In this document: one piece after another, positions 46,518-55,668 of the stretch
Layout: each line of letters begins with the position of its first letter
Numbering within the stretch: the first letter of the stretch is position 1
NCBI GenBank assembly: GCA_944382715.1
Contig: CALWNC010000007.1
Location: 1 to 64,000 of the forward strand
Reading direction: 5' to 3'
Source of the DNA: an uncultured Clostridia bacterium
GTDB taxonomy: Bacteria > Bacillota > Clostridia > Christensenellales > UBA1242
Length of the DNA: 64,000 nucleotides
Translations under genes and position numbers: made by a program
Notes under the pieces: model-generated
Told to the model about the DNA's origin: nothing
The model's input: only the letters and a program-made list of their open reading frames with translations
The model's database searches: none

Positions 46518-46618
46518 AAAATATAAAGGCAAAAATGTTTTCCGCTATGATTACATAAATACATAAAATTTAAATAAAAATTTATCCTAGGTCTAACTGG
46601 TTTGAAACTAGTGTAATA

Positions 46619-46660
46619 ATTAGACACTTTATCATTAAATTTGATAAGGTGTCTTTTTAT
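46619..46660 (+). terminator. strong terminator left of the defence operon
   Basis: AGACACTTTATCA / TGATAAGGTGTCT (one G-T pair) followed by TTTTTA. It separates the small gene from the cargo operon. Confidence 0.85.
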
Positions 46661-46698
46661 TTTACCTAAAATATATTAAAAATAGGACAAAATGTTTC

Positions 46699-46744
46699 AA
46701 AATGCGAATATTTTGTTGCATTTTTAAGATTTTTTAGTTATATT
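46699..46744 (+). promoter_or_regulatory. promoter and likely operator of the defence operon
   Basis: TTGCAT (46716-46721), a 17-bp spacer and TATATT (46739-46744). A dyad AAAATGC-N12-GCATTTT (46699-46705, 46718-46724) overlaps the -35 box and is a candidate binding site for the HTH protein encoded first in the operon. Confidence 0.6.
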
Positions 46745-46775
46745 ATTATAGTAATTAAAATTTGAGGTGTCAAAA

Positions 46776-46991
46776 ATGAGTATTTCATATAACAAATTAT
46801 GGAAACAACTAATTGATAAAAACATGACAAAAACTGATTTGCGAATGAAAGCAGATATTGGAACTTCTACTCTTGCTAAACTTGGAAAAAATGAACAAGT
46901 TAGTTTAGATGTGCTTTTAAGAATATGTAAAGTGCTTAATTGCGATATTTCTGAAATTATGGAAATTATTAAGGAGAATCAAAATGTGTAA
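46776..46991 (+). CDS. HTH (XRE) controller-type regulator
   Basis: A 71-residue HTH protein: NKLWKQLIDKNMTKTDLRMKADIGTSTLAKLGKNEQVSLDVLLRICKVLNCDISEIME. This is the pattern of small XRE regulators found as controller proteins of restriction-modification systems. The GAGGTG RBS at 46764-46769 supports the ATG at 46776. It overlaps the methylase gene by 8 bp. Inference: it times methylase and nuclease expression through the dyad in the promoter. Confidence 0.85.
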   Translation: MSISYNKLWKQLIDKNMTKTDLRMKADIGTSTLAKLGKNEQVSLDVLLRICKVLNCDISEIMEIIKENQNV

Positions 46992-47886
46992 AGGAATTGC
47001 AAAACCTTTCTTAAAATGGGCTGGTGGCAAAGGTCAACTTCTAAATAAGTTTGAAGAACTATATCCACAAGAACTAATTGAAGGACAAATTGAAACATAT
47101 ATTGAGCCATTTGTTGGTGGTGGTGCTGTTCTTTTTAATGTTTTACAAAACTACAAAATTAAGAAAGCATATATAAACGACATCAACAAAGAACTTATTA
47201 ACTGCTATCGTTGTATTAAAGCAGATGTTGAAGAAGTAATAAATCAATTAAATGCTTTAGAAAAAGAATATTTAACAAGCGAAGATAGAACTAATTACTT
47301 TTACAAAGTTAGAGATAGATACAATGAAATTCACTTAAACGGACATTATGACTTAGAAAAGTGTACAGATTTCATATTCTTAAACAAAACTTGTTTTAAT
47401 GGACTTTATAGAGTTAATAAAGATGGAAAGTTTAATGTGCCACATGGTAAATATAAGAACCCTTTAATTTGTGACAAAGAAAATTTAAGATTGTGTTCTA
47501 ACCTATTACAAAAAGTTGAAATAAGTTTTGGCAGTTATGAGCAAGTTTTAGAAAATGCAGACAATAAAACATTTGTATATTTTGACCCACCATATAGACC
47601 ACTTATAGAAAATAATTCATTTGTAAGTTATGATAAATCTGGTTTTGATGATAATGACCAAATCAATCTTGCTTGCAATTATAAAGCTTTAGATAATAAA
47701 AATTGCATGTTAATGCTCTCAAACTCTGACCCTAAAAATACAAATGAAGAAGATAATTTCTTTGATGATATTTATAATGGTTTTGAAATAGAAAGAGTTT
47801 TTGCGAAAAGAATGATAAATTGTCAAGCAAGCAAGCGTGGAGATATAACTGAAATTGTTGTAATGAACTACAAAAGGAGAAAATAA
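46984..47886 (+). CDS. dpnM: DpnM-like adenine-N6 DNA methyltransferase (GATC type)
   Basis: A 300-residue D12-class methylase. PFLKWAGGKGQLLNKF and IEPFVGGGAVLF (AdoMet binding) come first, and YFDPPYRPL is motif IV. NKTCFNGLYRVNKDGKFNVPHG is a hallmark of Dam/DpnM enzymes that modify GATC. It is paired with a DpnII-like nuclease two genes downstream. The protein protects host DNA from that nuclease. It starts inside the regulator gene and overlaps the next gene by one base. Confidence 0.92.
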   Translation: MCKGIAKPFLKWAGGKGQLLNKFEELYPQELIEGQIETYIEPFVGGGAVLFNVLQNYKIKKAYINDINKELINCYRCIKADVEEVINQLNALEKEYLTSEDRTNYFYKVRDRYNEIHLNGHYDLEKCTDFIFLNKTCFNGLYRVNKDGKFNVPHGKYKNPLICDKENLRLCSNLLQKVEISFGSYEQVLENADNKTFVYFDPPYRPLIENNSFVSYDKSGFDDNDQINLACNYKALDNKNCMLMLSNSDPKNTNEEDNFFDDIYNGFEIERVFAKRMINCQASKRGDITEIVVMNYKRRK

Positions 47887-48779
47887 TGAGTAACAAAGCA
47901 AAAGAAATATCAATGTTTATGATTGATGGCGAACCGTCAAGTAGAATCAAATGTACAATGAAAAATAGACTCAGTGTGATTTATAAAATACCAAGATTAA
48001 TGTTAGAAAATTGCAAAGAAGGAAATGGAGATATTGTTAAACATTTAAAGCAAACTGGTATTTATTTCCTAATCGGCGAAAATGCAGAAACAGGAAATAA
48101 AACAATTTATGTTGGACAAGCTGGTATAAGAAAAAATGGCAAAGGATTATATTGCAGACTTAATGAACATATAAAAAATGAAAAAGAAAATTATTGGTCA
48201 GATTGGAATGAAATAATTGCTTTTACTACTCAAAACGATTCTTTTGGTCCAACAGAAATAAGTTATTTAGAAAACAAATTTACAAAACTTGCTAAAGATG
48301 CTTGCAGGTATGATGTGCAAAATGGCAACGAACCAAATCAAGGTAATATAACAGAAGAAAAAGAAAGCGAATTACAAGATTTTATTGATGATGCTTGTGT
48401 TATGATTAGTATTCTTGGCTACAAAGTTTTTGAGCCTCTAGTAAAACAAACAATAACAAAAAATTCAAAGAATATTGAAAATATGCCGTTATTCAGTTTT
48501 CAAGGTAAATATAAGGCTTACGGTGTATTTACCAACGAGGGTTTTGTTCTATTAAAAGGTAGCGAAATAAATCCAGTAATTAATAAAAGTGCACATGGTT
48601 TTACAATTAAAGCAAGAGAACAAAATAAAAGCAAAATTAACAATGAAAGTATTACAACTGAAGATATTTTGTTTAGTAGTCCATCAGCTTCAGCTGGTTT
48701 TGTTGGTGGTTCTAGCTTGAGTGGAAATGCTATGTGGAAAACAAAAGATGGAAAATGTCCAAAAGACTATAACTTATAA
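47886..48779 (+). CDS. GIY-YIG nuclease-domain protein with C-terminal DUF4357
   Basis: A 297-residue protein. The GIY-YIG fold is readable: TGIYFLIG (G58-Y60), TIYVGQAG (Y75-G77), catalytic-type Arg91 in GLYCRLNEH, and Glu124 before YLEN. Residues ~200-297 end in SPSASAGFVGGSSLSGNAMWKTKDGK, typical of DUF4357, a small domain often attached to GIY-YIG and other defence-linked proteins. It is embedded between dpnM and dpnII, with a 1-bp overlap (TAATG). Its role here is unknown. It might be a second nuclease or a modification-dependent partner. Confidence 0.82.
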   Translation: MSNKAKEISMFMIDGEPSSRIKCTMKNRLSVIYKIPRLMLENCKEGNGDIVKHLKQTGIYFLIGENAETGNKTIYVGQAGIRKNGKGLYCRLNEHIKNEKENYWSDWNEIIAFTTQNDSFGPTEISYLENKFTKLAKDACRYDVQNGNEPNQGNITEEKESELQDFIDDACVMISILGYKVFEPLVKQTITKNSKNIENMPLFSFQGKYKAYGVFTNEGFVLLKGSEINPVINKSAHGFTIKAREQNKSKINNESITTEDILFSSPSASAGFVGGSSLSGNAMWKTKDGKCPKDYNL

Positions 48780-48793
48780 TAGGAGAAAATAAA

Positions 48794-49651
48794 ATGAAAA
48801 GAAATTTTAATGAATGGTTTGCAAATTTTACTGACAGTATAGCAACTTATGAATATTACACAGACTTTAGCATTGTTTATAAAAATATTGATAAAATCAA
48901 GGTTGAGTTAAATATTATGAACTCATTGATTGGTTCTAAAAATATTGAATCTGATTTTGATTCTTTATTTAAAAAATACCCAGAAATAAGAAAATGTTTA
49001 CCTCTACTTATTGCTGTAAGAGAAAAAGAAATTAAAGTAATAGACGATGGCGAAAAACTAAAATATAACTTTACTAATATTGATGATATTGAATTATTAA
49101 AAAGATTTATGAGAAAAACTGGTTTGTTTGACTTGATTTCGAATCATTTAGTAAATAACTTGGTTGATTATGCAACTGGTGTTGAAGTAGGACTTGGCTC
49201 AAATGGAAGAAAAAATCGTGGTGGTCATCTTATGGAGGATGTATTACAAGGTTTTATAGAGCAAGCAGGTTTTATAAAAGACAAAAACTACTTTAAAGAA
49301 ATGTATTTAAAAGATATTGAACAAAAGTGGAATATTGATTTATCAACTCTTTCAAATCTAGGTAAGGTTGCCAAAAGATTTGATTATGTAGTTAAAACTA
49401 ATAATTGTATTTATGCTTTTGAAACAAATTTTTATTCAATCAATGGTTCTAAATTAAATGAAACTGCTAGAAGTTATAAAATGCTAGCTGAAGAATCTAA
49501 AAATATTAAAGGATTTGCTTTTGTCTGGATTACTGATGGTTTAGGTTGGCAAGGAGCAAAAAATAATTTAGAAGAAACTTTTGATGTTATGGAGAATATT
49601 TACAACATCAAAGAACTCGAACAAGGTAAATTAAAGGAAATTTTAAAATAA
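48794..49651 (+). CDS. dpnII: DpnII-like type II restriction endonuclease (GATC)
   Basis: A 285-residue protein with the DpnII/MboI layout: FNEWFANFTDSIATYEYYTDF at the start, VDYATGVEVGLGSNGRKNRGGHLMED in the middle, and KRFDYVVKTNNCIYAFETNFYSINGSKLNETARSYK, which holds the Asp and Glu-x-Asn expected at the active site. It should cut unmethylated GATC. It has a TAGGAG RBS and sits 14 bp after the GIY-YIG gene; the second methylase starts right at its stop. Confidence 0.93.
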   Translation: MKRNFNEWFANFTDSIATYEYYTDFSIVYKNIDKIKVELNIMNSLIGSKNIESDFDSLFKKYPEIRKCLPLLIAVREKEIKVIDDGEKLKYNFTNIDDIELLKRFMRKTGLFDLISNHLVNNLVDYATGVEVGLGSNGRKNRGGHLMEDVLQGFIEQAGFIKDKNYFKEMYLKDIEQKWNIDLSTLSNLGKVAKRFDYVVKTNNCIYAFETNFYSINGSKLNETARSYKMLAEESKNIKGFAFVWITDGLGWQGAKNNLEETFDVMENIYNIKELEQGKLKEILK

Positions 49652-50371
49652 ATGGCAGAAGAAAAATTTGAGTTAGAAACAAATACTGTTTGGAGTTTTC
49701 CAAATCGTGGTAAATGGGCAACTCACGATGCTAAATATCGTGGTAATTTTTCGCCATATATAGCAAAAAACATTATATTAAGATATTCAAAAGAAAAAGA
49801 TGTTGTATTAGACCAGTTTGTTGGTGGTGGTACTACTCTTATAGAATGTAAATTAAATAATCGTAATGGTATTGGGATTGATATAAACCCTAATGCAGTT
49901 GAAATAACAAAAAATAAACTCAACTTTAATTGTGGCAATGAAGTTGATATTGATATTAAATTAGGAAATGCTTGTTTTCTTGATTTAGAAAATGAAAGCA
50001 TTGATTTAATATGCACACACCCACCTTATGCTGATATTATTAAATATAGCGAAGGTATTGATGGAGATTTATCACAATTAAAATATAAAGATTTTCTTTT
50101 ACAAATTGAAAAAGTAGCAAGTGAATGCTATAGAGTTTTAAAGAAAGACAAATTTTGTGCTATTGTTATGGGAGATACTCGTAAAAATGGTATGGTTCAG
50201 CCACTGGGGTTTGAGGTTATGCAAAGATTCATAAATGCAGGTTTTAAACAAAAAGAAATAATAATTAAAGAACAACATAATTGCAAAGCAACTGGTTTTT
50301 GGAAAACAAATAGTCAAAAATATAACTTTTTACTTTTAGCACATGAGTATGTGTTTATATTTAAAAAGTAG
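49652..50371 (+). CDS. second DNA methyltransferase (N4/N6, THPPY type)
   Basis: A 239-residue AdoMet-dependent methylase. Motif I is LDQFVGGGTTLIECKLNNRNGIGIDINP (residues ~53-80) and motif IV is THPPY (122-126), in I-then-IV order. The end has FWKTNSQKYNFLLLAHEYVFIF. It resembles N4-cytosine/N6-adenine methylases of the TRM11-like type, rather than DpnA, which occupies this place in DpnII systems. The ATG immediately follows the dpnII TAA. Which base or site it modifies cannot be told. Confidence 0.82.
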   Translation: MAEEKFELETNTVWSFPNRGKWATHDAKYRGNFSPYIAKNIILRYSKEKDVVLDQFVGGGTTLIECKLNNRNGIGIDINPNAVEITKNKLNFNCGNEVDIDIKLGNACFLDLENESIDLICTHPPYADIIKYSEGIDGDLSQLKYKDFLLQIEKVASECYRVLKKDKFCAIVMGDTRKNGMVQPLGFEVMQRFINAGFKQKEIIIKEQHNCKATGFWKTNSQKYNFLLLAHEYVFIFKK

Positions 50372-50384
50372 ACAAAGGAGAAAA

Positions 50385-50930
50385 ATGTTAAATTTTTTAT
50401 ATAAAGTATTGCTAACTTTTAATTCAACATCATGGGTAATAGTTTTATTTGGAGTAAAACATGAATGGACTTTATGGGATATGCCTAGTTGGGTATTTAG
50501 CCTAATTTTACTTGCAATTCCAGTTTTAATGTCATTTATTGCTTTATTGTTGGCTAATTTTTTTGGAAATGATAATATGGGATCATGTAATGAAGTTGAA
50601 TATGCGAACAGCTCTTTTATACCAACTTATCTAGGATATTTCTTTGTTGGTTTGAGTTTGGAAAATATTACTCAATTACTAATTGTGTATTTTATTATAT
50701 TTATATTTACCCAATTATCACAAACAGAGTATTTTAATCCAATATACTTATTATTTGGTTATAAATTTTATCATATTAAGTCATCTAAAGGCACAAAATT
50801 ATTTGTTATTACAAGAAGAAAAATTAGAAATGCGAATCAGGAAGAATTTGAAAAATTAAAAAGAATTAATGAGACTACTTTTATTGAACTAAGGAGAACA
50901 AAAAATGAATCAACTACTAGCAAAAGTTAA
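50385..50930 (+). CDS. KwaA-like membrane protein (Kiwa defence)
   Basis: A 181-residue protein with about four hydrophobic helices in the first ~120 residues. These are followed by YFNPIYLLFGYKFYHI-x4-GTKLFVITRRKI and a charged tail. The NPxxxLxGYxxY segment and the following basic strand recall KwaA of the Kiwa anti-phage system. The match is from memory of the pattern, not from an alignment. The ATG at 50385 has an AAAGGAG RBS. It overlaps the next gene by 26 bp, so the two are translated as a pair, in the kwaA-kwaB order. Confidence 0.5.
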   Translation: MLNFLYKVLLTFNSTSWVIVLFGVKHEWTLWDMPSWVFSLILLAIPVLMSFIALLLANFFGNDNMGSCNEVEYANSSFIPTYLGYFFVGLSLENITQLLIVYFIIFIFTQLSQTEYFNPIYLLFGYKFYHIKSSKGTKLFVITRRKIRNANQEEFEKLKRINETTFIELRRTKNESTTSKS

Positions 50931-51768
50931 AAATAGAAAACAAAGTATTAATGAAGGATTTAAAAGAATAATTGATAATAAAAATTGTTATTCTTTTCCT
51001 AACAATATTCAAGCAGTTGAATATAATCCAAATACCCTTTTAGAAGAAGGTCAATGGTATTCTATTGCTGAATTTTCACAACAAGAATTTTGTATAGAGT
51101 TATTAAAACAAGATAGATTTGATTCAGTTGATTTTTCGACATTAGATAGGAATGAATTTACTAAAATAGATTATTTATGTTCTTATCAAGATGAAAATTA
51201 TTTTTATTTCCAAAAAATTAGACCATCACAATTATTATTTAAGAAAAGATTATTATTTAGTTTTGGGCAAAACTTTAGTTATGATGAAAATAATGCAAGT
51301 GTAGTTATAAATTCTTACCCAGATGCTATTTATAAAAAAGATGATGACACTTTATATTTCCAAAAACTTGAAACAATATCAACAATATTTAAAGGAATAG
51401 ATATTTTATATAAAGAAGCGACTGAAGAAGAAACTGCTGAGTTTTTAAACAATGATTTTATATCTGTTCCAGCTAGTTTAGAAGTTGCAAAAATCGGTAA
51501 AGCTAGTAGAAAAAAAATAGCAATGGCAATGACAATACTGAGTAGATTTTCAAATGAAGAAAAATTAGAAATTTTAGAATACACAAAACAAAACTCTGGA
51601 CTTGAACATGAAAATAATTCTTTTATAATTAAAGATGAAGAAGATATAAAAAAATTAGTATGGGGAATCACTGAAAGGTATTACGAAACCCCAATTAGTA
51701 AAGAAAAAAGAATTGCCAATTCAATTATCAATGTTGATACTGGTACTATGGAAAATGATGAAATGTAA
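50905..51768 (+). CDS. KwaB-like (DUF4868-type) partner protein
   Basis: A 287-residue soluble protein. The C-terminal half runs VPASLEVAKIGKASRKKIAMAM, then DEEDIKKLVWGITERYYETPI and EKRIANSI. It has the general layout of DUF4868/KwaB: a central strand-rich domain followed by a helical arm with paired basic residues. It is encoded with the membrane protein upstream as in Kiwa, which senses phage at the membrane and limits phage DNA. Identification is moderate at best; it could instead be an undescribed membrane-linked effector. Confidence 0.45.
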   Translation: MNQLLAKVKNRKQSINEGFKRIIDNKNCYSFPNNIQAVEYNPNTLLEEGQWYSIAEFSQQEFCIELLKQDRFDSVDFSTLDRNEFTKIDYLCSYQDENYFYFQKIRPSQLLFKKRLLFSFGQNFSYDENNASVVINSYPDAIYKKDDDTLYFQKLETISTIFKGIDILYKEATEEETAEFLNNDFISVPASLEVAKIGKASRKKIAMAMTILSRFSNEEKLEILEYTKQNSGLEHENNSFIIKDEEDIKKLVWGITERYYETPISKEKRIANSIINVDTGTMENDEM

Positions 51769-51784
51769 AAAACGAAATGGCAGT

Positions 51785-51846
51785 TAGGCGTGTGCTTGTC
51801 ATATACAAGTGTTCTCGCTTCGCTCGAACAGACAAGCACACGCCTA
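51785..51846. repeat. long hairpin 1 after the cargo operon
   Basis: A perfect 16-bp inverted repeat, TAGGCGTGTGCTTGTC (51785-51800) and its complement (51831-51846). The 30-nt loop itself can pair GTTC with GAAC around CTTCG. It is much more GC-rich than its surroundings and lies 17 bp after the last cargo gene. There is no T-run, so it is not an ordinary terminator. Confidence 0.85.
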
Positions 51847-51874
51847 CCAATAAAACTAAACCAAATGCAACAAA

Positions 51875-51947
51875 GGAAAACGGAACAAAAATGGGGTTCG
51901 CTCGCAGGCTTTCAGCGACACCCCATTTTTCTTTTGTCCCGTTTTCC
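51875..51947. repeat. long hairpin 2 after the cargo operon
   Basis: GGAAAACGG and CCGTTTTCC close a bulged stem that continues through AAAAATGGGGT / ACCCCATTTTT. The tip pairs TCGCT with AGCGA. It is ~73 nt in all. Together with hairpin 1, 28 bp to its left, it gives a tandem pair of foldbacks. Confidence 0.8.
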
Positions 51948-52006
51948 ATATTGTATTACCATACAATTTTTAGCAAAATATAAAAATTTTTGACATTGGA
52001 AGTCCG

Positions 52007-52451
52007 TTTTTGCATTTTTCGTGCCTATTAGGTGTAAGGGCTTCAATTTATGTGCAATTTTCACAAAATTTAAGCAAATTTCAAAAAAGTTGGCACTTAG
52101 GGGGTTAATTTTTGCAATTTTCGTGGCTTATATATATAGAGGGCTTTACAAAAATGCAAACCACTATATACAAAGTAATACAAAAACTAGACTAGTTTTT
52201 TACCACTCTTTAATTATGCAATACATACACATTTTAAAAAAATTAAAATATGCTTTTTGTGTAGTTGGCTTACAAAATCCGTATTTTAGTTTATGTGAGT
52301 TTATGTTTTGTATGGGTAAAGTATAGGTAAAGTATGGGTTTGTTTATGGTAATGACAAAATAAAATTTGTATAATTATTTTGTAAGATTTGCAAGAACTA
52401 AAATATTGTTAAGCAGGCAGACAATATTTGAAAAGTTGTAAGCCCTTACAC
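52007..52451. repeat. candidate replication origin: direct, tandem and inverted repeats
   Basis: Repeats upstream of the rep gene: a ~37-bp imperfect direct repeat around GCATTTTTCGTGCC and GCAATTTTCGTGGC (52007-52043, 52109-52145); an 11-bp tandem array TATGGGTAAAG, TATAGGTAAAG, TATGGGTTTG (52311-52342); a perfect 12-bp inverted repeat GTGTAAGGGCTT (52032-52043) and AAGCCCTTACAC (52440-52451). Hairpin AATATTGT/ACAATATT lies at ~52402-52428. There is no coding sequence. The pattern fits iterons or a double-strand origin next to an HUH Rep. Confidence 0.55.
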
Positions 52452-52564
52452 TGAGTCGAATTAGAAACCTAAATTGACAAGACGAGTAATGAGTTAAGAT
52501 AGTGGCGAATAAAAAAGCCCAAAACCTTCCTTGGGGTAAAACAAGGCAGAGTTAGCATTTTAGG

Positions 52565-52601
52565 CATAGAAAAAACTAAAAACTTTTTCTATGTCTTTTT
52601 T
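52565..52601 (+). terminator. attenuator-like terminator in the rep leader
   Basis: CATAGAAAAA / TTTTTCTATG with a 9-nt loop, followed by a T-rich stretch, 34 bp before the small ORF at 52635. Since it lies upstream of the genes it would control, premature termination of the rep transcript is a natural reading. Confidence 0.6.
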
Positions 52602-52634
52602 GACTCCAAAAATCTAAAAAAAGGAGTTAAAAAA

Positions 52635-52760
52635 ATGAAAACTGAAACAACAAATTTAATAGACATTACACTATTAGACAATGAATTTTTTGTGGCTATG
52701 TTGAATCAGATATTAGCCCACAAAAAAAGAGAGGTGCAAAATGGACTACCCAAAAACTAA
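52635..52760 (+). CDS. 41-residue small protein overlapping rep
   Basis: A short frame, MKTETTNLIDITLLDNEFFV and onward, with a strong AAAGGAG RBS. It overlaps the rep start by 20 bp, so rep is probably translated by coupling from it. No family recognised. Similar leader-size genes are often seen directly before Rep genes of integrated elements. Confidence 0.65.
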   Translation: MKTETTNLIDITLLDNEFFVAMLNQILAHKKREVQNGLPKN

Positions 52761-53616
52761 AGTATATTTTGATGGTAGTCATTACATTGGCATACCTCAC
52801 ACAACACAACCACATAAGAAAAGAAAAAACAAACCAAAAGAAAAAGACACAAGAGAAGAAAAAGTAAAGGAAATTTACAAAGAAAGCAAAGGAACTAAAA
52901 AAGAAAAATTAGAAAACACTATTGAAGAAATAGACAAAGAAATTAAAGATATTGAAAAATCTACGGAACTAGTAAACAAAACATTAGATAAAGAAAGAAG
53001 AAATAGAATTGTTAGATATACAAGATTGATTAGAAAAATCAGATTACAACAATGGACTCACTTTTGCACTTTTACTTATGACTCTAACAAATTAACCGAA
53101 GAAAAATTTAGAAAGAAATTATTAAATTGCTTAAATCATTTAGCACATAGGAAGAACTGGAAATATGTAGGAGTTTTTGAACGAAGCCCAGACCTTAAAC
53201 GATTACATTTTCACGGAATATTTTTAATACCACAAATGGTTGGCGAAATTATTGAAACAAAAGATTATTCTACTAAAACACACCAAATGCAAATAGCATT
53301 ACAAAATACCTTCTTTTTAGAAAGATTTGGAAGAAATGATTTTAGACCACTAGATGAAAATAGTATTCAAGATGCAGTAAGTTATATAACCAAATACATT
53401 AACAAAACTGGTGAAAAAGTCATTTATTCAAGACACTTACAAACATATTTCATAACTGACATTATAGAAGAAGATGTTGTTTGCACTATTGGTCAAGAAG
53501 ATAGAAAAATACTTTTGTTTGATGATTTCAAATGCTTGGACTTTGAAACTGGCGAAGTTTTAGGTCAAGTAAGCAAAGATAAGGAACTAATAAACAAATT
53601 GCCAAAGGGTTATTGA
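52741..53616 (+). CDS. HUH-type rolling-circle replication initiator (Rep)
   Basis: A 291-residue protein. Residues ~30-90 are a basic, charged coiled region. The catalytic core has HFCTFTYDSN (motif 1), RLHFHGIFLIP with the HUH pair H156 and H158, and AVSYITKYINK with candidate nicking tyrosines Y215 and Y219. This is the arrangement of rolling-circle Rep endonucleases that nick one strand at an origin and covalently hold its 5' end. A GAGGTG RBS precedes the ATG. No helicase domain is fused. Confidence 0.85.
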   Translation: MDYPKTKVYFDGSHYIGIPHTTQPHKKRKNKPKEKDTREEKVKEIYKESKGTKKEKLENTIEEIDKEIKDIEKSTELVNKTLDKERRNRIVRYTRLIRKIRLQQWTHFCTFTYDSNKLTEEKFRKKLLNCLNHLAHRKNWKYVGVFERSPDLKRLHFHGIFLIPQMVGEIIETKDYSTKTHQMQIALQNTFFLERFGRNDFRPLDENSIQDAVSYITKYINKTGEKVIYSRHLQTYFITDIIEEDVVCTIGQEDRKILLFDDFKCLDFETGEVLGQVSKDKELINKLPKGY

Positions 53617-53765
53617 TTGTCTTTCGTAAGCGAAGTCTAAACGAAAACTCTTTTTAGTCAAGGTTAAAGTGCATTGATTCTCAAACCTTGACTAAAAAAT
53701 AGCAATTTTAAAAATTAAATATTTTTAACCCTTTTCGTTTCTTTTCGCTTTTGTCCGAAAGACAA
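53617..53765. repeat. nested 149-bp inverted repeat between rep and the recombinase
   Basis: From outside in: TTGTCTTTCG / CGAAAGACAA, AAGCGAA / TTCGCTT, AAACGAAAA / TTTTCGTTT, and a perfect 15-bp core TTTTTAGTCAAGGTT / AACCTTGACTAAAAA (53651-53665, 53684-53698). All arms are in nested order, so the whole region can fold back once. It could be a single-strand origin or a recombination site. Confidence 0.8.
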
Positions 53766-53798
53766 ATAAAAAAAATAAATATAAAAGGAGAAAATAAA

Positions 53799-55292
53799 AT
53801 GAAAACAGCTGTAATATATGCTAGATATTCAAGCAATAATCAAACCGAACAATCTATTGAAGGACAAGTCCATGTTTGTCAAGATTTCGCTAAAAAGAAT
53901 GACATAATCATTGTTGATTCATACATTGACCGAGCAATTAGTGGAACAACTGACAATCGTGATTCTTTCCAACAAATGCTAAAAGATAGCAACAACAAAA
54001 AATGGGACTATGTATTAGTTTACAAATTAGACAGGTTCGCAAGAAACAAATTTGAATCTGCAATTCATAGAAAACACTTAAAAGATAATGGTGTTAAATT
54101 ATTATCAGTAATGGAAAATATTCCTGAAACACCAGAAGGAATATTATTAGAATCTTTACTTGAAGGAATGAACCAATATTATAGCGAAGAATTAGCACAA
54201 AAAGTTAGTCGTGGACTACACGAATCAAGAATGAAAGGACATTGTATAGGTTCAGTGCCTTATGGCTATATCAAGGAAAATAAAAAACTAATAATCAATG
54301 AAGAACAAGCATTGATATTAAATAGAATCTATGAAGATTATTCTAATGGTTATACTATATTACAAATATCACGAATGTTTGCTCAAGAAAATATAACTAA
54401 TAATGGCAGACCTTTTATACCTGATACAATAAGAGATTTCTTACAAAGAAAAACATATACTGGCGAATATGAAATAAATGGTAAGCAATACAATAACATA
54501 TACCCACCAATCATTTCTAAAGAATTATTCGAAAAAGTAAAAACAAGATTAGATAAAACTAAATATGGTTGTAGAAAACCTAATCACGATATATTCAAAC
54601 TAAAAGATAAAATATATTGTGGTTGTTGTAATAGAAAAATGTATCCAGTATCTGCAAAAAATTATGATGGTAGTCCATTAAGATATTACAAATGTTTAAC
54701 AACAAAAAAGAGAAATTGTTCAACTGGAAATATAGACAAAAACTTTATAGAAAATGTAATTGATAGATTCTTAATAGACCAATTCAATACACCTAAAAAT
54801 CTTGAAGAAATAACTAATAAAATATATGAAGTTCAAAAACAACAACTTTGTAGTAATAATTTGCTAAACTCATTAAAAAGAGATTTACAAAAAACAAATA
54901 CTTCTATTTCTAATTTATTGTCTGCAATAGAAAAAGGAATATTTACAACTACTACAAAACAGCGACTTGAAGAATTAGAACAACAAAAACAAACTTTAAC
55001 TGAAAAATTGATAATTGAAGAATCTAAACAAACTTTTGAATTATCTAAAGAAGATATTAAAGAGCATTTTAGATATATTATGAAAGAATGTCCTAATTGT
55101 GCTATACAACAACTAATACAAAGAGTAAATGTGTATAGCAATAAGATTGAAATTATTCTTAATTCTTCTAACCAAAGTAATGAAAGGACAATCAAACAAG
55201 TATTTACTGAAACTCTTACAACTCAAAGACAATTTAAAGGTGGTAAAACAAAAACAAGAACTAAAACTTATGATATTTACTTAATTATTTAG
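53799..55292 (+). CDS. large serine recombinase
   Basis: A 497-residue integrase. The resolvase domain shows VIYARYSSNNQTEQS with the likely nucleophile Ser11, DRAISGTTDNRDSF and LVYKLDRFARN. A recombinase domain (VPYGYI, GRPFIPDTIRDFLQRKTYTGEY) follows. A zinc ribbon has C274, C277, C299 and C307. A long coiled coil is seen at ~345-420. Enzymes of this kind insert and excise elements at short att sites without host factors. An AAAGGAG RBS supports the ATG at 53799. Confidence 0.93.
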   Translation: MKTAVIYARYSSNNQTEQSIEGQVHVCQDFAKKNDIIIVDSYIDRAISGTTDNRDSFQQMLKDSNNKKWDYVLVYKLDRFARNKFESAIHRKHLKDNGVKLLSVMENIPETPEGILLESLLEGMNQYYSEELAQKVSRGLHESRMKGHCIGSVPYGYIKENKKLIINEEQALILNRIYEDYSNGYTILQISRMFAQENITNNGRPFIPDTIRDFLQRKTYTGEYEINGKQYNNIYPPIISKELFEKVKTRLDKTKYGCRKPNHDIFKLKDKIYCGCCNRKMYPVSAKNYDGSPLRYYKCLTTKKRNCSTGNIDKNFIENVIDRFLIDQFNTPKNLEEITNKIYEVQKQQLCSNNLLNSLKRDLQKTNTSISNLLSAIEKGIFTTTTKQRLEELEQQKQTLTEKLIIEESKQTFELSKEDIKEHFRYIMKECPNCAIQQLIQRVNVYSNKIEIILNSSNQSNERTIKQVFTETLTTQRQFKGGKTKTRTKTYDIYLII

Positions 55293-55301
55293 AATAGAAA
55301 A

Positions 55302-55350
55302 AAGAGTATAATTTCAAACAACAAATTTGATTTTATACTCTTAATTTTAT
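55302..55350 (+). terminator. terminator after the recombinase
   Basis: AAGAGTATAA / TTATACTCTT followed by AATTTTATTT, 9 bp after the recombinase stop. Confidence 0.75.
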
Positions 55351-55518
55351 TTGCCTAATTTATTCCATGGTGTTCTTGACACGAGCCTCCACGAAATGGT
55401 TATTCTAGGGCATACGGGCAAGGGAAAGAAATTGCAGGCAATTATCTTTTCTTGCCCTTGGCAACAAGCCTATACCATTTCTACTCATGTCAAGAACCTT
55501 TCACGGCATAAAGGCAAA
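55350..55518. repeat. ~170-nt bulged foldback at the right end of the element
   Basis: Seven pairings nest in order around one apex: TTTGCCT/AGGCAAA, TTCTTGACA/TGTCAAGAA, GAAATGGT/ACCATTTC, TAGG/CCTA, GGGCAAG/CTTGCCC, GAAA-GA/TCTTTTC and ATTGC/GCAAT. The tip is near 55436. It is GC-richer than the flanks and non-coding. A further hairpin TTAGGAC/GTCCTAA (~55529-55548) follows. It could be a structured RNA or an att/origin structure. Confidence 0.8.
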
Positions 55519-55668
55519 TAAAAAAGAATTAGGACTTTTGAGTCCTAACTCTCTTTGAAAATAACACTAGTTTCAATTTCCTTTGCTCTATAAATTTATT
55601 TTTTATTCGTATATTTTGCTAAGTTTTCTAAAAAAATTCACAAGATATAAAAAAATGTCAAAAATTAA

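Follow-up and report, generated by a model that had tools for sequence, protein, structure and literature searches.

What is a long, almost complete foldback doing in the short gap between a recombinase gene and ppdK? The question arose in a window of 64,000 nucleotides (the whole stretch of DNA that was analyzed) from an uncultured Clostridia bacterium, for which a first-pass annotation had reported a non-coding foldback around one apex at positions 55350 to 55518. The foldback was real, since none of 200 shuffles equaled either strand in folding. Folding energies as RNA were -67.1 kcal/mol for the plus strand (z, -6.2) and -75.7 kcal/mol for the minus strand (z, -7.5). Its location held, but its limits had to be widened: the 170-base foldback occupies 55345 to 55523, because a perfect outer stem of 11 bp reaches further, with TTTTATTTGCC (55345 to 55355) pairing with GGCAAATAAAA (55513 to 55523). 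Its shape is that of an unbranched rod, with a single apex as in the earlier description and with internal loops; it is indeed non-coding, lying between the recombinase stop (55292) and ppdK (55751). A covariance model, described below, matched the minus strand from 55347 to 55524. The features of the locus are collected in Table 1.

Table 1. Features of the island and of the foldback in the window
Feature	Position	Strand	Basis
X motif TTTGAAACTAGTGTAATAATTA, putative left attachment half-site of the island	46601..46622	+	Sequence comparison
DpnII-like restriction-modification cargo	46984..50371	+	Methyltransferase (49652-50371) tested; rest read from translations
Kiwa defense genes, cargo (kwaA, 50343-50930; kwaB, 50905-51768)	50343..51768	+	
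Left-end hairpin (LE) of the Rep-recombinase module	51778..51848	+	Comparison with relatives
HUH-type rolling-circle Rep	52741..53616	+	Pfam REP_ORF2-G2P; HFH and YITKY motifs in translation
Large serine recombinase	53799..55292	+	Resolvase, Recombinase and zinc-ribbon domains
Foldback (FB), strand-specific hairpin	55345..55523	-	Folding, strand bias, covariation, model match; minus is the better-folding strand
Variable outer stem, 5' half TTTTATTTGCC	55345..55355	.	Sequence varies in relatives, complementarity kept
Conserved left arm TTTATTCCATGGTGTTCTTGACACGAG	55359..55385	.	Comparison with relatives
Conserved right arm CTCATGTCAAGAACCTTTCACGGCATAAA	55484..55512	.	Comparison with relatives
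Intrinsic terminator, directly upstream of the folded strand	55521..55556	-	16-pair stem and T tail; shuffles mean 0.1
X motif, inverted copy, putative right attachment half-site of the island	55556..55577	-	Sequence comparison

The annotation had named homologues and covariation of the arms as its checks, and both came out clearly in its favor. Homologues are present (for example, in 19 of 148 relatives by the covariance model), and both sides had changed in 17 of the 32 tested pairs, against a mean of 7.4 in shuffled data, with 0 of 500 shuffles reaching 17. Furthermore, 92.7% of the cells in the foldback alignment pair, whereas slid versions pair in just 34 to 48%. The constant part reads, on the model strand, UUUAUGCCGYGAAAGGU.CUUGAC paired with GUCAAG.ACACCRYGGAAUAAA and contains an invariant asymmetric internal loop; in P3, the inner hairpin, and the outer stem, the sequence is free to vary with complementarity kept. 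In two copies (L214 and L215), CTTGAC/GTCAAG is replaced by the compensated ATTGAC/GTCAAT. On the right, the foldback ends sharply at the stem's foot. Besides, it occurs in circularly permuted form at L055, L069, and L120, beside an IS30-like gene with an integrase-core domain. The foldback at L092 is likewise inside-out, and an IS30-like neighbor was seen in three of these four loci.

The covariance model, built from 15 diverse copies and giving only rough E-values, also found the foldback in 36 of 291 genomes drawn from the class and in 15 of 348 genomes from the phylum; few candidates per genome were scored with it, so that copy numbers are lower bounds. A DNA search detected copies in 15 other genomes of 148, and scanning for the right arm gave 85 stretches from metagenome-assembled genomes of Firmicutes of the gut and rumen; of these stretches, 80 became loci L055 to L134. 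An exact right-arm scan of viral contigs gave no match, and BLASTN with the foldback as query found nothing in collections of phages and plasmids. At the Rfam gathering score, no family was matched by the window or by 20 other foldback loci, and lax thresholds gave no foldback match even up to an E value of 5, which bears out the earlier remark that no named RNA class has such a layout. In open-access papers, we found no description of serine-recombinase cassettes in terminators or of hairpins behind transposases.

In the window, the foldback sits in a serine-recombinase island of about 9 kb. The island has inserted between the genes recO and ppdK, and these two genes lie about 0.5 kb from each other in one relative (G002) and are likewise close in two others (G004 and G006). 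The island carries, in order, a DpnII-like restriction-modification (RM) system, Kiwa (these cargo genes spanning 46984 to 51768, with kwaA and kwaB directly upstream of the LE hairpin), the LE hairpin, Rep, the recombinase, and the foldback. The module includes an HUH Rep here and in some relatives, and many serine-recombinase elements are without a Rep of this kind. RM or related defense genes, as read from sequence, also stand beside the module in several relatives. Upstream of Rep, a non-coding stretch (52400 to 52620) that is partly conserved in L033 and L087 ends in a terminator and is possibly a small RNA or a replication origin. At L060, L070, L125, L127, and L133, arrays of a 22- to 23-nt motif, CGTGTGCTTGTCTTGATACAAGT, spaced about 45 nt apart, precede the recombinase; the motif is half of the LE hairpin, and the arrays occupy the place that the Rep gene has in other elements. 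L126 has the loop of its LE hairpin in the opposite orientation to other copies, and has the same left flank as L098. A CTTGATA-like nick site in LE was considered and dropped, as it is not conserved among copies.

The island has 28 related cassettes, mostly of 0.8 to 4 kb, with the X motif at both ends, whose cargo, judged from sequence, includes DNA methyltransferases, a kinase-like gene with an acetyltransferase, an ABC transporter, and an exonuclease III-like gene. The outer flanks of the cassettes are two halves of one dyad (longest common word, mean of 7.3 versus 4.1; 2,000 shuffles, maximum of 5.25), and the joined flanks fold like a terminator (-10.9 versus -7.1; standard deviation, 0.56). 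Therefore, the recombinase probably integrates into intrinsic terminators, and probably moves recombinase-less cassettes in trans. In elements without X, a tRNA-gene terminator tends to lie shortly beyond the foldback. The X-bounded family as a whole (window 46601 to 55577; L035 to L049, L054, L056, L059, L072, L073, L080 to L084, L101, L110, and L122 to L129) comprises cassettes of one to a few diverse genes, many recombinase-less, inside host intrinsic terminators. We had taken copies made up of the LE hairpin and the foldback for free MITEs, and this was revised: a second, inverted X motif lies to the left of most of them, so that they are the right modules of longer cassettes. The foldback as the attachment site of the recombinase was rejected, since the junctions are marked by X motifs and split terminators.

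The annotation had also pointed to linkage with this type of recombinase. The linkage proved strong, but it is not confined there, as several unrelated transposase families carry the foldback. Copies lie directly 3' of genes for large serine recombinases and for several DDE-type families; in the serine-recombinase elements listed, the open reading frame ends about 5 to 13 nt before the conserved left arm, and at 21 of 27 class-wide loci the foldback lies -31 to +102 nt from the 3' end of a transposase gene of IS3, ISLre2 (UPF0236), IS256, a DDE_IS240-like family, or a family bearing a helix-turn-helix. In one genome (G188), all nine scored copies adjoin ISLre2 copies. Four of these ISLre2 copies were compared; they have terminal repeats in common with the foldback inside the repeats, and at least two show clear 9-bp duplications. 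In one published list (PMC9333248), IS3, IS30, IS256, and ISLre2 all appear among the copy-out-paste-in families, which have circular intermediates. Close relatives of the recombinase without any foldback occur at L207, L210, and L211 and in a second pair in the window's own genome (G000:C3), and the shortened cassettes L101 and L115 have lost most of it. The foldback is thus dispensable and, given also the many recombinase elements without Rep, an accessory, exchangeable module. One copy (L096) was seen beside AbiE-like genes, as read from sequence, and a truncated tyrosine recombinase.

Wobble pairs and folding energies favored the same strand. In-stem G.T pairs numbered 45 on the model strand versus 3 on the other in non-cassette copies, 50 versus 4 in cassette copies, and 39 versus 5 in a separate class-wide set, regardless of the direction of the enzyme gene; this bias comes partly from a few fixed positions in copies that, where related, are not independent, and the inner part alone gave 9 versus 3 and 19 versus 1. 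Outside the recombinase-less cassettes, the model strand usually folds better, often by 5 to 15 kcal/mol. These two lines of evidence suggest that the active form is one strand in its single-stranded state, whether DNA or RNA, rather than a cruciform in duplex DNA. A terminator scan of the window placed the end of the minus-strand terminator at 55521, the edge of the foldback, so that a full model-strand transcript would need strong read-through. T-run stem-loops likewise face the foldback at L067, L127, and L133. Because of the facing terminator, and because cassettes without a recombinase gene retain the foldback, the evidence favors a cis-acting single-stranded DNA structure over RNA. Among the three readings offered at first (structured RNA, single-stranded folded target of a recombinase, and origin), a folded single strand is therefore the best supported and an origin-like role is plausible. 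A plain RNA is disfavored in the window, where the terminator of the better-folding strand ends at the very edge of the foldback. As for the recombinase, the X motifs appear to be its own attachment sites.

The foldback is thus a previously undescribed single-strand fold, strongly conserved, that many unrelated mobile elements of bacteria carry; its probable role is that of a DNA signal while they move or are copied. Computation established the covarying structure, the strand bias, the position 3' of enzyme genes, the retention in recombinase-less cassettes, and, here, the facing terminator. As the best mechanism, which we hold to be possible rather than probable, we propose that the foldback is a DNA hairpin, specific to one strand, from which DNA synthesis starts or restarts on single-stranded or circular intermediates. 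The foldback would be one copy of a conserved cis-acting hairpin module in mobile elements of Bacillota. The element would pass through a circular or single-stranded intermediate, either an excised serine-recombinase circle copied by Rep or a copied-out IS circle, in which one particular strand becomes single and folds; the folded strand may then serve as a site for starting or restarting DNA synthesis, like a single-strand origin or a primosome-assembly site. We infer this role from the strand specificity, the company, and the retention of the foldback, and it would explain why elements with unrelated enzymes carry the same structure. Covariation, strand bias, the position 3' of transposases, the circle-using IS families, retention without a recombinase, the terminator, and Rep all count for it. 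Against it count the many elements without Rep, the dispensability of the foldback and its near loss from the two shortened cassettes, two associated transposase types for which circle use is not known here, and the limits on the wobble bias given above, that is, the few fixed positions and the dependence among related copies.

A further count against this mechanism is that in 17 of the 21 transposase cases the foldback is on the mRNA strand, as would also be expected of a structure at the 3' end of the mRNA. The chief rival builds on this point and regards the foldback as a structured RNA that controls enzyme expression or joins in mobility; transposases would have it as a 3' element of their mRNA, and recombinase elements as an RNA that is antisense or free. 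Strong covariation, the conserved asymmetric internal loop, the tolerance of wobbles on one strand, and the existence of a circularly permuted form would all suit an RNA. We nevertheless regard it as unlikely, since transcription of the best-folding strand in the window would have to pass a 16-pair terminator at the 5' edge of that strand, with similar stem-loops facing three other copies, and since serine-recombinase elements and most IS256 elements have the foldback strand running opposite to the gene; besides, the foldback is kept where no recombinase gene is left, and it has no Rfam match.

Alternatively, the foldback may be a palindrome acting in duplex DNA, which binds a protein or blocks transcription, either as an accessory site for the transposase or recombinase or as an insulator where the enzyme gene ends, and has no need to become single stranded. 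Its position between the enzyme gene and the element end and the conserved arm sequences accord with this, but we consider it quite improbable: one duplex-binding enzyme common to serine recombinases and several DDE families is unlikely, strand-specific wobbles are not expected of a duplex site, and the serine recombinase attachment sites appear elsewhere. No less doubtful is a selfish hairpin, REP- or MITE-like, that hitchhikes behind transposase genes with no function for the host element, for although close recombinase relatives have or lack the foldback, its right edge is sharp, and L254, L262, and L266 carry it without a recognized transposase, it is nearly always found in the same place 3' of enzyme genes, all nine scored copies in G188 belong to one IS family, and its structure is strongly conserved.

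The synthesis-start reading has a wider form, which we put forward more tentatively still: a phylum-wide folded-strand module, common to serine-recombinase cassettes and several copy-out-paste-in families, would provide a host-dependent start or restart of synthesis that is absent from transposon models. After the figure-eight, replication of copied-out IS circles has been left to the host machinery, with no named start signal (PMC9333248). If the proposal is true, a hairpin common to four copy-out-paste-in families and serine-recombinase islands would be a handle on circle replication. The foldback could also serve as a marker by which to find mobile elements in Bacillota, among them cassettes that lack a recombinase, carry RM and other genes, and move in trans.

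Several known systems resemble parts of this picture. SCC elements of staphylococci likewise use a large serine recombinase to move defense cargo, and their recombinase-less relatives are moved in trans, the same idea as for the cassettes here. The recombinase of the window differs in lying far below the cutoffs of its nearest curated families, CcrB and CcrA (CcrB, 115.5 bits versus a cutoff of 900), in inserting into terminators rather than rlmH, and in carrying the foldback. REP/RAYT palindromes and the end hairpins of IS200/IS605 are also strand-specific imperfect hairpins of mobile elements, whereas the foldback is about 150 to 190 nt long and lies within elements of other families; no Y1 transposase was identified next to it. 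The attachment site of a large serine recombinase is a split palindrome at the element-host junction, whereas the foldback is internal and the junctions carry X half-sites and split host terminators. Nor did it resemble a folded attP of the XerCD (CTX) type, the best fit to a Firmicutes dif consensus having a median of 14 mismatches of 28 versus 13 in shuffled sequences. Integron attC sites share with the foldback the folding of one strand, an imperfect stem with conserved mismatches, a variable inner part, and a place just after a gene, but the enzymes of the foldback are serine recombinases and DDE transposases. The boxes RYYYAAC/GTTRRRY were found at the two feet of 0 of 54 copies on either strand, so the attC comparison was negative, as was that with dif. 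No IntI-type gene was found beside the foldback.

Rolling-circle plasmids (for a review of their replication, see PMC5714925), and integrative elements such as ICEBs1, have single-strand origins (sso), which are long, imperfect, non-coding, strand-specific hairpins exchanged between unrelated replicons. Like them, the foldback is long, imperfect, and non-coding, occurs in unrelated elements, and has an HUH Rep in its module, and its strand bias and covariation agree with a strand-specific folded hairpin; it differs in being associated mainly with transposases, and the likeness drawn here is one of form. None of the tested families fits it, and unless a role in starting replication is proven, a hairpin that serine recombinases have in common with several DDE families belongs to no known kind. 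The closest known kinds would be sso by behavior, set beside it by description, and attC by architecture, with the R boxes absent.
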